Source: a bacterium
GTDB taxonomy: Bacteria > Joyebacterota > Joyebacteria > Joyebacterales > Joyebacteraceae
Assembly: GCA_025774245.1 (NCBI GenBank)
Contig: JALGWI010000013.1
Coordinates: 1 to 51,907, forward strand
Length of the DNA stretch: 51,907 nucleotides
Reading direction: 5' to 3'
Shown: piece after piece, positions 1,026-47,516 of the stretch
Numbering within the stretch: the stretch's first letter is position 1
How the letters are laid out: every line of letters begins with the position of its first letter
Program-made: the position numbers and the translations under genes
Notes under the pieces: generated by a model
What the model saw: only the letters and a program-made list of their open reading frames with translations
The model's database searches: none
What the model was told of the DNA's origin: nothing

Positions 1026-1703
1026 CTACGCCAGACTCTCCGCCATGACGCGAACCGCGTTCCCGAGGATCTGTGCGCCGTCGTGCTGGAACGGCCCCTC
1101 CCACCCGAGCGCCTCCCACGCCTCGTCCTCATCGAAGACGCCCTCGCCGTAGCAGGGGTGGAACTGCAACCCGTAGACCGGGAGTTCCCGGTGTCGGATC
1201 GCCTGGACGGTGCAGTAGTCCGACGTCGCGATGAGGTCAAACCCGTCGGGCACGCCTACGATCTGATCGCTGTGCTGCTCGGGGACGAGAACGGCCTCCC
1301 CGAGTCCCGAGAAGACGGGATCGTCGCCGACCGGCGCAACGTCGAAGAGCCCGACGCGCTTCTGTCGGCTGACGAGCTCCGAGCCGAACGCCTCCCCCAG
1401 CAACTGGTGCCCGAAACAGATCGCGAGCACCGGGAGCCCGGCGCCGACCGCCGCGCGCAGGAGATCCTCCTCCTCGAGCATCCAGGCAGCGGGCGACGTG
1501 AGGGAGAGGTCGCTTCCCGACAGAACCAGCGCGTCGGCCCCGTGCGAAGCGAGCCAGTCGCGGGCGGGCGCGAAGCCCTCGACCTGCGTCACGATCCGCG
1601 CCTCGAACGCGTCGGCGAACGCCTCGGCCAGCCGCGTGGCCCCGTACTCGGACGACGGGTGGTCGTTGTTGATGACGATCGCGCGCGGCCTACCCGACGA
1701 CAA
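1026..1703 (-). CDS. Class I glutamine amidotransferase-like protein
   Basis: A 225-residue stand-alone GATase1 (flavodoxin-like) domain related to GMP-synthase glutaminase. The nucleophile elbow ICFGHQLLG contains Cys96 and the histidine is His182 in LQFHPCYGE. In classical members the triad Glu follows as H-x-E; here the order is H182-P-C-Y-G-E187, so the glutamate is displaced by three positions or the role is altered. The ATG at 1703 lies inside the end of the upstream flavoprotein gene (14-base overlap), which implies translational coupling. No synthetase partner is adjacent. It could be a glutaminase-type hydrolase or a gamma-glutamyl hydrolase-like enzyme; substrate unknown. Confidence 0.8.
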   Translation of the reverse strand: MSSGRPRAIVINNDHPSSEYGATRLAEAFADAFEARIVTQVEGFAPARDWLASHGADALVLSGSDLSLTSPAAWMLEEEDLLRAAVGAGLPVLAICFGHQLLGEAFGSELVSRQKRVGLFDVAPVGDDPVFSGLGEAVLVPEQHSDQIVGVPDGFDLIATSDYCTVQAIRHRELPVYGLQFHPCYGEGVFDEDEAWEALGWEGPFQHDGAQILGNAVRVMAESLA

Positions 1704-42132: not shown

Positions 42133-42738
42133 ATGCTCCGTGCAACCGCGGCCATCGCCGCATTGATCGTACTCTGGACCGCCGGTCCCGCACTCGCCCG
42201 GTCTGGGAACCCCCCGGACGCGAGGACGGGTGCCCCGGGCGAGAGCACCTGCGCCGGCTGCCACGGCAACCTGAACACTGGGAATGGCTCGATCGTCGTG
42301 ACCGGCCCGGACGCCTACGCCGCCGGTGATACGATAGACGTGTTCGTGCAGGTCGAGGACGCCGGCCAGTCGCGATGGGGATTCGAGGTGACCGTGCTCG
42401 ACGATTCGAACGAGCCGGCAGGCAGTGTGATCCTGACGGACCTAGCCCGGACGCAGCTGTCGGTGGCCGGGGGCACCGGGCGCCAATACGTGAAGCACAC
42501 GTCGCTCGGAACCGATCCCGGCACTCCGAACGTCTCGCCCGGGTGGGGCTTCAGGTGGGCCGTGCCGGTCCCGATCCCAGACGCCGTGACGTTCTACATC
42601 GTCGGGATCGCCGCGAACGGAAACGGGAGCACGAGCGGCGACTACACCTACACCGACGTTCACGTCATGGACGGCGTGAGCGCGGCGCTCGGGGAAGACG
42701 AGACCACGTGGGGGAAGATCAAGTCGCTCTTCCGATGA
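42133..42738 (+). CDS. Choice-of-anchor V protein with CXXCH site and TWGxIK tail (copy 1)
   Basis: A 201-residue exported protein. After the signal peptide (MLRATAAIAALIVLWTAGPALA) comes the sequence DARTGAPGESTCAGCHG, with Cys40, Cys43 and His44, the haem c motif that opens choice-of-anchor V/Reelin-like proteins. A beta-sandwich follows (FVQVEDAGQSRWGFEVTVLD, GRQYVKHTSLGT, WGFRWAVPVP, VTFYIVGIAANGNGSTSGDY). It ends in TWGKIKSLFR (42706-42735). The family is known for pairing with different C-terminal anchors; here the anchor position is taken by this short tail. GGAGG lies seven bases before the ATG. Probably periplasmic or surface-bound. Confidence 0.84.
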   Translation: MLRATAAIAALIVLWTAGPALARSGNPPDARTGAPGESTCAGCHGNLNTGNGSIVVTGPDAYAAGDTIDVFVQVEDAGQSRWGFEVTVLDDSNEPAGSVILTDLARTQLSVAGGTGRQYVKHTSLGTDPGTPNVSPGWGFRWAVPVPIPDAVTFYIVGIAANGNGSTSGDYTYTDVHVMDGVSAALGEDETTWGKIKSLFR

Positions 42739-42782: not shown

Positions 42783-43388
42783 ATGATGCTGCACGTCATT
42801 CGGCTGGTCGCTCTCGTGAGCGTGATCGCGTTCGCAAGCATCGCGGTCGCCTTCTCGACCGGCCCGCCGAACGAACGGACCGGGGCCCCGGGTGAAGGCA
42901 CGTGCGCGGACTGCCACGGCAACCTCAATGTCGGCGACGGCAGGATCGTCGTCCAGGCGGACTCGCCGTACGTCCCCGGAGAGACGGTGGACGTGACGGT
43001 ATGGGTCAGGGACCCCGGTCAGATCAGGTGGGGGTTCGAGCTGACCGTCCTCGACGGGAACAACCTGCCGGTCGGCGATCTCATCGTGACCGAGCCGACG
43101 CGCACGCAGGTGTCGGTCGCCGGGAACGGGCGCCAGTACATCAAGCACACGGCACTCGGGACCGACAACGGAACGCCCGACGAGTCGCCCGGATGGAGCT
43201 TCCAGTGGGCCTCCCCCGCCGTCGACCCGGGCAGCGTGACGTTCTACATCGCCGGGAACGCCGCGAACGGGAACTTCGCGAACACAGGCGACTTCATCTA
43301 CACGAACGTCTACATCTATGATGGCTCTCACTCGTTTCTAATTGACGACGACACCACGTGGGGTATGATCAAGGCGCTGTACCGATAG
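42783..43388 (+). CDS. Choice-of-anchor V protein with CXXCH site and TWGxIK tail (copy 2)
   Basis: A 201-residue paralogue of the preceding gene, with the same order: signal peptide, ERTGAPGEGTCADCHGN (Cys41, Cys44, His45), beta-sandwich (VWVRDPGQIRWGFELTVLD, GRQYIKHTALGT, WSFQWASP, VTFYIAGNAANGNFANTGDF) and the tail TWGMIKALYR (43356-43385). The copies are diverged, so the duplication is not recent. Start is ATG at 42783 or the adjacent ATG at 42786, which has the better distance from GGAGG. Only 44 bases separate the two genes. Confidence 0.84.
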   Translation: MMLHVIRLVALVSVIAFASIAVAFSTGPPNERTGAPGEGTCADCHGNLNVGDGRIVVQADSPYVPGETVDVTVWVRDPGQIRWGFELTVLDGNNLPVGDLIVTEPTRTQVSVAGNGRQYIKHTALGTDNGTPDESPGWSFQWASPAVDPGSVTFYIAGNAANGNFANTGDFIYTNVYIYDGSHSFLIDDDTTWGMIKALYR

Positions 43389-43470
43389 CCGAGCGTCAGC
43401 CGTCGCGGCGCCTGCCACGGTCGCGACATGGGTGCGCCCGATCCGATCGGAGCGCGCGAAGGAGGCCACC

Positions 43471-43899
43471 ATGTCCAAACCGAAGTACCTCTGGCCCGTG
43501 CTCTTCCTCACGACAGCTCTCCTCGCGGGCTGCAGCTCGAGCGATCCGTCCTCCTCGAACGGGGGGAACGGAGACGTCCCCGAGGAGCCGTCGTTCTCTG
43601 AGCACGTCCAGCCGATCTTCAACGCGAACTGCACAGCCTCGATCTGCCACGGCGGCTCGGCGGGCGGACTCACGCTCACGTCCGGCAACTCCTACGACGA
43701 GCTCGTGAATGTCGATTCCGGGAATGAACCGCAGTGGAAGCGCGTCCTCCCGGACGACGCCGAGAACAGCTACCTCGTCATGAAGCTCGAGGGACGGCAG
43801 ACCGTCGGGGCCCGCATGCCGTCCGGCGCGGCTGCGCTCCCGAACGATGACATCCAGACCATCAGGAACTGGATCGACGACGGCGCAGAAGAGAACTGA
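43471..43899 (+). CDS. Lipoprotein with CX4CH haem-like site
   Basis: A 142-residue lipoprotein (lipobox LLAGC, Cys21) with a low-complexity serine/asparagine linker. The domain that follows has SFSEHVQPIFNANCTASICHGG, where Cys54, Cys59 and His60 give C-x4-C-H instead of C-x2-C-H, then GLTLTSGNSYDELVNV, NSYLVMKLEGRQTVGARMPSG (a candidate methionine ligand) and IQTIRNWIDDGAEEN. The layout matches Planctomycete-type cytochrome c domains at the end of larger proteins. Whether haem is bound through C-x4-C-H is open. AAGGAGG lies five bases before the ATG. Likely co-transcribed with the CXXCH gene that follows. Confidence 0.75.
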   Translation: MSKPKYLWPVLFLTTALLAGCSSSDPSSSNGGNGDVPEEPSFSEHVQPIFNANCTASICHGGSAGGLTLTSGNSYDELVNVDSGNEPQWKRVLPDDAENSYLVMKLEGRQTVGARMPSGAAALPNDDIQTIRNWIDDGAEEN

Positions 43900-43931
43900 G
43901 ACAGGACACTTCTACCCGGAGAGTGGTAACG

Positions 43932-44513
43932 ATGATGAAAGCACTCCTAGTCGCAGTCCTCGTCTTGGCGTGCGCCGGTTCCGCGCTCTCGGAGAACCAC
44001 GAAGAGACGGCGACGGACGAAGTGACCGAGGCCGCGGAGGTCACCGGGACGACGGAGGCGAGACCCGTTGCCACGCCCGAGACGAAGGTCGCGGCGCTCT
44101 TCCAGTCCCGGTGCATCGCGTGCCACGGGGGCGAGCGTCCGGCAGCGGGCATGAGCCTCGCCGTCGACGGTTTCGTCGCGTCGCTCACGGACGTGCCGAG
44201 CACAGAGGCCAAGAAGCTCGCCCGCGTCGACACCGGGAATCCCGAGGCCAGCTATCTCCTCATGAAGCTCCGCGGCGACAAGGGGATTCAGGGGAGCCGC
44301 ATGCCGATCGGCCTCCCTGCTCTCGAGGAGGAGGAACTTCAGATCGTCGTCGACTGGATCGAACTCCTCGCGGCGGAGCGGGCCGAGGCCGCCGCCGAAT
44401 CCGATGGCGGCGAGGCCGGCGCTGCCGCCGCCGGTGCGGCCACTGCAGGGGGAGCAGCCGCTGCCGGGACCGCCGGCGAGACAGAGGAAGTCTCCGGAAA
44501 AAAAAAGCCATAG
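43932..44513 (+). CDS. Exported CXXCH cytochrome-like protein, zero frame before A9 slip site
   Basis: A 193-residue protein. Signal peptide (MMKALLVAVLVLACAGSALS), acidic linker, then a cytochrome c-like domain with SRCIACHGG (Cys61, Cys64, His65), MSLAVDGFVASL, ASYLLMKLRGDKGIQGSRMPIG (probable Met ligand) and IVVDWIELL. An alanine/glycine-rich linker leads to [12 protein letters not shown] and a TAG stop at 44511-44513. The stop follows nine adenines (44498-44506), and the -1 frame continues directly as a DUF5777 domain with no start of its own. ATG at 43932 or 43935, with GGAGAG upstream. Probably the N-terminal part of a longer product. Confidence 0.78.
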   Translation: MMKALLVAVLVLACAGSALSENHEETATDEVTEAAEVTGTTEARPVATPETKVAALFQSRCIACHGGERPAAGMSLAVDGFVASLTDVPSTEAKKLARVDTGNPEASYLLMKLRGDKGIQGSRMPIGLPALEEEELQIVVDWIELLAAERAEAAAESDGGEAGAAAAGAATAGGAAAAGTAGETEEVSGKKKP

Positions 44514-44558
44514 ATCCAGATGACGCCGGGGCCGCGCTCGCGTACGCGCCCTCGGCGT
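44484..44558 (+). promoter_or_regulatory. Candidate programmed -1 frameshift signal (dnaX-like)
   Basis: Three elements stand in order. A Shine-Dalgarno-like GAGGA (44484-44488) lies 12 bases upstream of the heptamer A-AAA-AAG (44501-44507), which is in the correct phase in the zero frame and sits within an A9 run. After 15 bases follows a 14-position stem (44523-44536 with 44545-44558) with one mismatch and one G-U pair and an eight-base loop. The same heptamer directs -1 slippage in E. coli dnaX. A -1 shift joins the CXXCH protein to the DUF5777 frame. A sequencing error in the A-run is the alternative. Confidence 0.5.
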
Positions 44559-45292
44559 TCTCCGCGCTCAAGCTCATCAACCTCCCGACGACCCGTCCGA
44601 TCGGCGGGCACAACATCCTGTTCAGAATCTCCCACCGGTTCGTCCCCGCAACGCGAACGGGCTACGACACGTTCTACGGCGTGAACGGCCCGGCTATCAT
44701 CCTGCTGGGTCTCGGGTACGGCATCACCGACAGGATCGGCGTGATGTTCGAGCACACGAACGTCTTCCACGAGTACGAGCTCACCGTCACGTGGCTCGCG
44801 ATGGAGCAGAGCGGGTCGACCGGTGTTCCCGTCTCTCTGGCGCTCGCCGCGAGTGGGTGCCTCGTGACGCAGACCGGGCCGGACGAGGACGTCTTCGCGT
44901 CCGAGAACATGAAGTTCACGCTGCAGTCGATCGTCTCGCGCCGATTCGGGGACTCGTTCTCCGCGCTGGCCGCTCCGATCTACGCGTCGAACACGGACCA
45001 CTGGGAGAAGGACTCGCAAGGCACGTTCGCGATCGGGATCGGAGGAAGGTGGGTCGTGACGGGTGGTTTCTCGCTCACGGGCGAGTGGATCCCCGTGATC
45101 GACGGCTACGAGACCGGCCACGAGTCGTGGGGATTCGGACTCGACTACGAGGTCGGGGGACACGCGTTCCAGGTCGTCCTCACGAACTGCTTCGGTCTCA
45201 CGACCGACCAGTATGTCCCCGGCGGCGACCTGAGGTTCACGGACGGCGAGATCAGGATCGGCTTCAACATCTTCAGGACGTTCTGGCTCTGA
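44498..45292 (+). CDS. DUF5777 barrel-like domain, -1 frame continuation
   Basis: About 264 codons beginning [20 protein letters not shown]. The sequence resembles DUF5777, a beta-barrel-like outer-membrane family: [115 protein letters not shown] and the terminal [13 protein letters not shown] ending in an aromatic residue. No ATG, GTG or TTG lies in this frame before a GTG near 44739, which is inside the domain. It must therefore be expressed by a -1 shift at 44501-44507, or the A9 tract is miscalled. In the fused form a periplasmic haem domain would sit in front of a barrel. Confidence 0.72.
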
Positions 45293-45332: not shown

Positions 45333-47516
45333 GTGGAAAGGCACCGGAGGCGCATCAGCATCGCGGCCGCGGCGATCGTGATCGTCGCGATCGCGCTGGC
45401 GAGATCGGGAGGAGAGAACGTGACACCGGAAGGCACGCCCAACAGGCTCATCCACGAGAAGAGCCCCTACCTGCTTCAGCACGCCCGGAACCCGGTCGAC
45501 TGGTACCCATGGGGCGACGAGGCCTTCGAGAGGGCGGAGCGCGAGAACAGGCCGGTCTTCCTCTCGATCGGTTACTCCACCTGTCACTGGTGCCACGTCA
45601 TGGAGCACGAGTCGTTCGAGGACCCGGAGGTCGCGGCCCTCATGAACGAGACCTTCGTCTGCATCAAGGTCGACCGCGAGGAGCGGCCCGACATCGACGG
45701 CGTCTACATGGAGGTCGCCCAGCTCATGAGCGGGAGGGGCGGCTGGCCGCTCACGATCATCATGACCCCGGACAAGAGGCCGTTCTTCGCCGCGACCTAC
45801 ATTCCGAAGAACGACCGCTTCGGCATGACGGGGATGATGACCCTCGTGCCGCGGATCGCCGAGCTCTGGTCGACGCGGAACGCCGAGCTCGTCGCGACGG
45901 CCGATCGGGTCGTCGACGCGATCCGGCAGGCGTCCGCGGGCGCGGCCGGTGGCGACCTCGACCTCGGAGCGGCGGTCCTCGAGACGGCCTACGGCCAGCT
46001 CAGGGACTCGTACGATCTGAGGTACGGCGGCTTCGGCGGCGCTCCGAAGTTCCCGACGCCGCACAACCTGCTCTTCCTCCTGCGCTACTGGTCCAGAAGC
46101 GGAAGCGACGACGCGCTCGACATGGTCGAGACGACGCTCCACGCGATGCGGCGCGGCGGGGTCTACGACCACGTCGGGTTCGGCTTCCACCGCTACTCGA
46201 CCGACGCCGAGTGGCTCCTCCCCCACTTCGAGAAGATGCTGTACGACCAGGCCCTCCTCGCGATGGCGTACACGGAGGCGCACCAGGCGACCGGTGGGCC
46301 CGAGTACGAGCGCACGGCGAGGGAGATCCTGACCTACGTGTTGCGCGACATGACCGCTCCCGAGGGCGGATTCTACTCCGCCGAGGACGCCGACAGCGAA
46401 GGCGTCGAGGGGAAGTTCTACCTGTGGACGACCGCGGAGATCCGCGAGGCGCTAGACGACGAGGAAGCCGAACTGGCCGCCAGGGCCTTCAACCTCCGCG
46501 ACTCCGGCAACGTCAAGAACGAGGCGACGGAGCACGAGACCGGCGCGAACATCTTCCACCTGACGGAGCCGCTTCCCGCGATCGCGAAGTCGATGGGCCT
46601 CTCCGAGGAGATCCTCGCGGCCCGCCTCGAGACGATCAGGCAGAAGCTCTTCGAGATCAGGGAGAGGCGCGTTCACCCCCACAAGGACGACAAGATCCTG
46701 ACCGACTGGAACGGTCTCATGATCGCGGCGCTCGCCAAGGCGGCGAGCGTTTTCGGCGACGACTCGTACGCCAACGCGGCCCGAAGGAGCGCCGACTTCC
46801 TTCTCACGACGATGAGAGAAGACGGTCGATTGCTCCACCGGTTCCGCGACGGCGACGCCGCGATCCCCGGGACCGCCGAGGACTACGCGTTCCTCACGTG
46901 GGGACTCCTCGAGCTCTACGAGGCGACGTTCGAGGTCCGCTACCTCTCCGCCGCCGCGCGCCTGAACGAGGAACTCCTCGCCCACTTCTGGGACGACGAG
47001 GGCGGCGGGCTCTACTTCACCGCGGACGACGCGGAGACGCTTCTCACGCGCCGCAAGGAGATCTACGACGGCGCCATTCCGTCGAGCAACTCCGTGGCGA
47101 TGCTGAACCTCCTCCGGCTCGGGCGGGTCACGGGCGATCCTTCGTTCGATGAACGGGCGGCCTCGATCGGCCGCGCCTTCTCCGAGCAGGTCGAACGCTA
47201 TGCCGCCGCGCACACGCAGCTCATGAGCGCCATCGACTTCGGCGTCGGGCCTTCCCGCGAACTCCTCATCGTCGGGGAGCCCGGAGCGGACGACACGCGA
47301 GAGCTCGTCGCGGCGGCGCACGCACGATACGTTCCCAACAAGGTCGTGCTCCAGAGGCCCGCAGACGGAGCCGGCGAGCTCTCGGGAATAGCCGGATGGG
47401 CGGACGCCCACGCGGCGATCGACGGACGCGCCACCGCGTACGTCTGCCGGAACTACGAGTGCGAGCTTCCGACGACCGATTCCGCGAAGATGGTCGAGCT
47501 CCTCACGACGCCCTGA
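45333..47516 (+). CDS. YyaL/DUF255-type thioredoxin-fold protein, membrane-anchored or exported
   Basis: A 727-residue protein. A hydrophobic N-terminus ([18 protein letters not shown]) precedes the thioredoxin-like DUF255 domain: [38 protein letters not shown] (Cys84, Cys87) and [15 protein letters not shown], then [22 protein letters not shown] long alpha/alpha-barrel follows ([31 protein letters not shown]-like [49 protein letters not shown]-like). This is the whole YyaL/spermatogenesis-associated-20 architecture, whose reaction is unknown. The start is GTG at 45333 with AAGGA upstream. Last gene of the secreted haem cluster. Confidence 0.88.

Follow-up and report, generated by a model that had tools for sequence, protein, structure and literature searches.

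The window, by which we mean the whole stretch of 51,907 nucleotides that was analysed, belongs to a 3.2-Mb assembly (G000). We compared it with two congeneric genomes, the MAGs BHB10-38_Bin_124 and AB_69_Bin_103 (G001, 3.2 Mb, and G002, 2.9 Mb), so that the comparison covers three species. In the window, the frame of a putative exported cytochrome (ORF1) ends just after a run of nine adenines (A9), and a startless second frame (ORF2) continues from the same run as a predicted membrane beta-barrel. The features of the locus are as follows.

43432..43899, plus strand: small lipoprotein-like haem-type protein (CTASICHG), directly upstream of ORF1; synteny common to G001, G002 and G008 (a member of the same family)
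43923..44513, plus strand: ORF1, putative secreted c-type cytochrome with the haem site CIACH, an Ala-rich linker and the C-terminus GKKKP before the stop
44484..44488, plus strand: GAGGA, Shine-Dalgarno-like, 12 nt before the heptamer; spacing not kept in the relatives
44498..44506, plus strand: A9, candidate slippage run; exact match in three species
44498-44504, plus strand: A_AAA_AAA, overlapping the A_AAA_AAG heptamer
44501..44507, plus strand: heptamer A_AAA_AAG in zero phase
44498..45292, plus strand: ORF2, predicted DUF5777 membrane beta-barrel in the -1 frame; Pfam domain at 44558-45283
44511..44513, plus strand: zero-frame stop TAG, the end of the free cytochrome; distance from the run identical in three species
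44519..44562, plus strand: RNA hairpin downstream of the run, a possible stimulator; main stem 44522-44536 / 44545-44559
44521..44523, plus strand: third-frame stop TGA, which leaves only the barrel frame open past the run; the relatives are alike
45333..47516, plus strand: DUF255/Thioredox_DsbH (YyaL-like) protein, downstream, by profile match

ORF1 probably starts at ATG 43932 and opens with a signal peptide, MMKALLVAVLVLACAGSALS, that was recognised by eye. Against the cytochrome c Pfam models the window's protein scores E=3e-5, below the gathering score, and its homologues in G001 and G002 match PF00034 above the cut-off (25.3 and 25.0 versus 21.3), the window's own copy lying slightly under. 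With a CXXCH motif, a profile match and an export signal (by eye), ORF1 has the features by which we class it as a c-type cytochrome. Two tandem CXXCH paralogues (CAGCHGN and CADCHGN, at 42133-42738 and about 42800-43388) precede the cytochrome lipoprotein in the window, and in G008 a CXXCH protein similar to this tandem pair also precedes it.

From the run onwards, 264 codons of the -1 frame are open, up to a stop at 45290-45292. It matches DUF5777 (PF19089) over positions 1-247 of 247 (E=1e-52; 178.9 bits versus a cut-off of 23.1), which agrees with the domain assigned to it in the preliminary description of this DNA, where the frame had also been called startless. Indeed, ORF2 has neither a start codon nor a signal peptide of its own, and ATG, GTG and TTG are absent from the run to codon ~59 in the window. 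We found no mention of DUF5777 in the literature searched and no relative of ORF2 among solved structures (best E=0.018). An AlphaFold2 model of the barrel built from four sequences was poor (pLDDT 42).

The A9 run lies in GC-rich (66%) DNA and is the single nine-mer in the 52-kb window, where all other A runs are one to five long. The cytochrome frame reads GGA AAA AAA AAG CCA TAG across the junction, stopping four bases past the run. The run, the phase of the A-AAA-AAG heptamer, the GAGGA 12 bases upstream and the position of the stop were thereby found where they had first been described. Both frames other than that of the barrel terminate within at most five codons past the run, in the window as in the relatives.

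The preliminary description had proposed that conservation of the A run with disrupted frames would speak for programmed slippage and that fused single-frame orthologues would speak for an error. Within the genus, run and disrupted frames are conserved. The barrel of G001 and G002 is 76-78% identical in amino acids to that of the window, the block GG-A9-G-CC-N-TAG is identical in both, and the barrel lies in the -1 frame in both. GGA AAA AAA AAG CC is invariant in the three species, while the adjoining upstream linker varies in sequence and, through indels as long as 33 nt, in length. In all three species the cytochrome frame is closed four bases past A9. The barrel frame is closed upstream of it by a TGA that precedes the run by 9 nt in G002 and by 27 nt in G001; therefore, the two frames can be joined only within a short bracket, and A9 is the one remarkable feature of that bracket. 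In the window the barrel frame is open back to 43781, but because of the stops in the two relatives we take this opening to be incidental.

A homopolymer miscall had been raised as a doubt, and homopolymers are prone to sequencing or assembly error. If the run were such an error, the real gene would be a single-frame fusion, and homologues of that form do exist: cytochrome and barrel share one open frame without an A9 run in G008 and in two members of other families (G123 and G072). On the other hand, A9 occurs at the same place in three species whose MAGs were binned separately, the TGA before and the TAG after the run bracket it in both G002 and G001, and the fused homologue of G008 has no run altogether. 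Conservation of A9 and of the split frames makes a miscall highly improbable. The simplest history, as an inference from these homologues, would be an always-fused ancestor that gave rise to the A9-split gene in this genus.

The relatives had also been named as the place to look for A8 or A10 restoring one open frame, or for a separate start of the DUF5777 gene. Both carry exactly A9, and neither has a usable start. The first of these results bears on phase variation, in which replication slippage within A9 would toggle the barrel on and off in the population. A run of nine adenines is mutable and surface proteins frequently phase-vary, but a variable tract should show A8 or A10 in some genomes, whereas three of three species have A9, which is never the 'on' length for the barrel here. 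We consider such a switch very unlikely.

The second result bears on the idea of two separate genes, the barrel being translated without a frameshift by internal initiation or by reinitiation after the TAG. In other lineages (G352, G222, G209 and G371), DUF5777 is encoded by a gene that stands alone and brings its own signal peptide, which would give this idea a precedent. In the three species, though, no ATG, GTG or TTG occurs in the barrel frame until 147-174 nt past the run, which is already inside the domain, so that reinitiation would produce a shortened barrel lacking a signal peptide. Separate translation of the barrel is thus barely credible. Two of the stand-alone genes have neighbours of interest: that of G352 (L024) adjoins a CXXCH protein and that of G209 (L031) a YceI-like protein (by eye), suggesting a wider association of cytochrome, DUF5777 and YceI. 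Of 20 genomes examined in the phylum, four carried DUF5777, which also occurred in scattered other lineages.

We also considered a pseudogene. The ratio dN/dS was 0.16-0.26 for the barrel part (dS 0.39-0.64) and 0.32-0.46 for the cytochrome part, so that neither half is decaying. As judged from these ratios the barrel is under purifying selection, and on this, with the conserved A9 and frames, we rejected a pseudogene as unlikely. Taken together, the conserved run, the stop bracket, purifying selection and single-frame homologues without the run make error, pseudogene, reinitiation and phase variation unlikely. The comparative evidence strongly supports programmed recoding that would join the CXXCH cytochrome to the DUF5777 barrel.

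Long runs are rare in these genomes. Searching both strands of each complete assembly by pattern, we counted runs of exactly A8, exactly A9 and at least ten: 0, 1 and 0 in G001; 0, 1 and 0 in G002; and 2, 3 and 1 (one A10) in G000. Thus, A9 of the cytochrome-barrel gene is the sole A/T run of at least eight in the genomes of G001 and G002. In these two species the gene has only two AAA lysine codons, both at the A9 site, versus 9 and 12 AAG codons. Of the two further A9 runs in G000, one is intergenic and one is coding. The latter (contig 109, L114, about 1565-1573, minus strand) is in frame in an accC-like (biotin-carboxylase) gene, of which about ten codons are left at that point (GTLERKKKTEKELAVTV followed by the stop). 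It has no counterpart in G001 and G002, and slippage there would alter the tail alone.

Which enzyme slips is less clear-cut than the recoding itself. The preliminary description had read the site as a dnaX-like -1 frameshift signal, as in E. coli, where tandem slippage of tRNA-Lys on A_AAA_AAG or A_AAA_AAA is stimulated by a downstream hairpin; here it would give the fusion. Of that reading, the conserved in-phase heptamer and programmed recoding stood. The Shine-Dalgarno element did not, since the window has it near the expected spacing of about 10 nt from the heptamer but G001 and G002 do not; the spacing of the stem is variable, two tRNA-Lys are encoded, and all nine adenines are kept. Ribosomal slippage is nonetheless a possible mechanism, if a rather doubtful one as sole cause. 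A_AAA_AAG is in phase and followed by CC in three species, and CC after AAG is the most shift-prone ribosome context in E. coli (PMC5009743). The run also forms A_AAA_AAA, on which tRNA-Lys(UUU) could slip by itself.

The RNA structure downstream adds evidence on both sides. The 13-pair stem first noted in the window holds and comprises 14 pairs plus two outer pairs. It is weak (-28.4 kcal/mol, z -1.7) and distant (spacing 11-14 nt, compared with 5-9 nt for the E. coli dnaX type; the main stem begins 14 nt past the heptamer). The hairpins of the relatives, in contrast, begin about 5 nt past the heptamer; measured against dinucleotide shuffles, that of G002 has z -7.0 (-47.6 kcal/mol) and that of G001 z -5.9 (-45.0 kcal/mol). 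Between the two, one synonymous pair has changed in a compensatory way (GAC/GTC to GAT/ATC) and one GU has become GC, and folding energy at the site ranks 1-3 within the barrel region. Such hairpins are expected to have no role in slippage by RNA polymerase. Against this, codon-preserving controls gave p of about 0.02-0.06 in the relatives (75-99 nt stretches spanning the hairpin) and 0.03-0.15 in the window, and simulation of the six synonymous changes between the two relatives gave p 0.04-0.07 for retention of the fold. The register of pairing also differs between the window and the relatives, so that no downstream stem with base-by-base covariation was found in common to all three species. 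Selection on the relatives' hairpins, as far as these sequences indicate, is weakly supported.

Stem-loops can also drive slippage by polymerase, as in the Roseiflexus IS. An upstream hairpin abutting the run in the window (GAGAC...GTCTC) was considered as such a driver and rejected, as it is absent or unremarkable in the relatives and under synonymous shuffles.

In Thermus, the presence of two tRNA-Lys has been suggested as the reason why polymerase slippage at nine adenines serves dnaX, whereas in E. coli, which has a single tRNA-Lys, it is the ribosome that shifts (PMC5009743). We found genes for both tRNA-Lys(UUU) and tRNA-Lys(CUU) in the two genomes checked (anticodons TTT and CTT in G000 and G001), so AAA and AAG do not depend on one shared tRNA-Lys(UUU) as they do at E. 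coli dnaX. With a tRNA-Lys(CUU) of its own, AAG should be held firmly (PMC5009743), which argues against the ribosome as well. The tRNA cluster Lys(CTT)-His-Arg(TCT) occurs twice in G000 (contigs 3 and 84; L102 and L093), as is expected of a strain mixture in a MAG.

A conserved run length of nine among homologues is regarded as a sign of purposeful transcriptional slippage (PMC1088944). The cytochrome-barrel gene has sequence hallmarks of the Thermus dnaX type: an A/T run of at least nine at the frame junction, a length conserved as A9 in three of three species, and avoidance of other A/T runs of at least eight across the genomes of G001 and G002. The A_AAA_AAG heptamer requires only six adenines and a G, and all nine are kept in the three species; RNA-polymerase slippage of the Thermus dnaX type appears to fit this somewhat better. 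We therefore favour, as the probable explanation, one gene that gives two exported proteins by programmed slippage at A9, with RNA polymerase as the main slipping enzyme. Given the strong downstream hairpins of the relatives, ribosomal -1 frameshifting is a serious rival or partner, and the two enzymes may act together.

On this preferred explanation, unslipped reading would yield a short, secreted cytochrome with one haem, whose Ala-rich tail ends in GKKKP. A slip into the -1 frame, either as one extra A in the mRNA or as a ribosome moving back one base, would let translation continue into the DUF5777 beta-barrel and tether the same cytochrome to it, presumably in the outer membrane. Since ORF2 lacks both a start codon and a signal peptide, synthesis and export of the barrel would depend on the slip. 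RNA polymerase would slip mainly, as in Thermus dnaX, with the ribosome as a possible contributor. The frequency of slippage is presumably useful, and a substantial yield is plausible, since frameshifting in E. coli reached 40% with a 9-A cassette taken from a different gene (PMC3711429). The roughly equal output of both products suggested in the preliminary description is a guess.

We infer that the products help to carry electrons through the envelope, a process to which the ratio of free to tethered cytochrome would be relevant. Our tentative proposal, for which the chances fall a little short of even, is that a recoding switch specific to this genus sets a fixed ratio of free periplasmic to barrel-anchored cytochrome and arose from an always-fused ancestor. 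If true, this would be the first known case in which programmed slippage divides an electron carrier, respiratory or extracellular, between a soluble form and one tethered to a membrane. To our knowledge, few cellular bacterial genes use recoding purposefully. A gene for an exported cytochrome and an outer-membrane barrel was not among the reported cases in the literature searched, which mostly excluded subscription papers; the process would be of a known kind, and the pair of products novel. The locus is thus a well-supported recoding candidate of a new functional class in an uncultured sediment lineage. Because its A9 occurs naturally in GC-rich bacteria that have two tRNA-Lys, it would allow transcriptional and ribosomal slippage to be separated directly. 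Annotation would otherwise overlook the barrel or label it a pseudogene.

Several known systems resemble parts of this arrangement. As is proposed for the cytochrome-barrel gene, the copA frameshift of E. coli lets one gene produce a metal-binding domain both free and tethered to a membrane, but there the free domain is the shifted product, the protein is a copper chaperone/ATPase and the membrane is the inner one. The E. coli dnaX cassette shares the in-phase A_AAA_AAG, the 3' hairpin and, in the window only, the upstream GAGGA. It differs in that here the Shine-Dalgarno element and its spacer are not conserved, the run is A9 rather than A6G and two tRNA-Lys are present; moreover, the dnaX shift leads to the short product, whereas the shift in the cytochrome-barrel gene would lead to the long one. 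In the Chlorobi, dnaX consists of two adjacent ORFs at an A run with recoding into the long product, yet it encodes a replication protein and its run has 7-10 adenines, varying among species (PMC3711429). The magnesium-chelatase genes with frameshifts found by GeneTack likewise have two ORFs, a -1 transition at poly-A and fused homologues elsewhere (PMC3711429); their product is a cytoplasmic enzyme and the context of the run is not identical, in contrast to the exported cytochrome and membrane barrel proposed here. Thermus thermophilus dnaX and the cytochrome-barrel gene agree in several respects: A9 stands in a GC-rich genome, lysine has two tRNAs, stops lie close by in the other frames, and one gene gives two products, as is proposed for the cytochrome-barrel gene (PMC5009743, PMC1088944). 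The gene and function are different, and the long product, unslipped in Thermus, would here be the slipped one.
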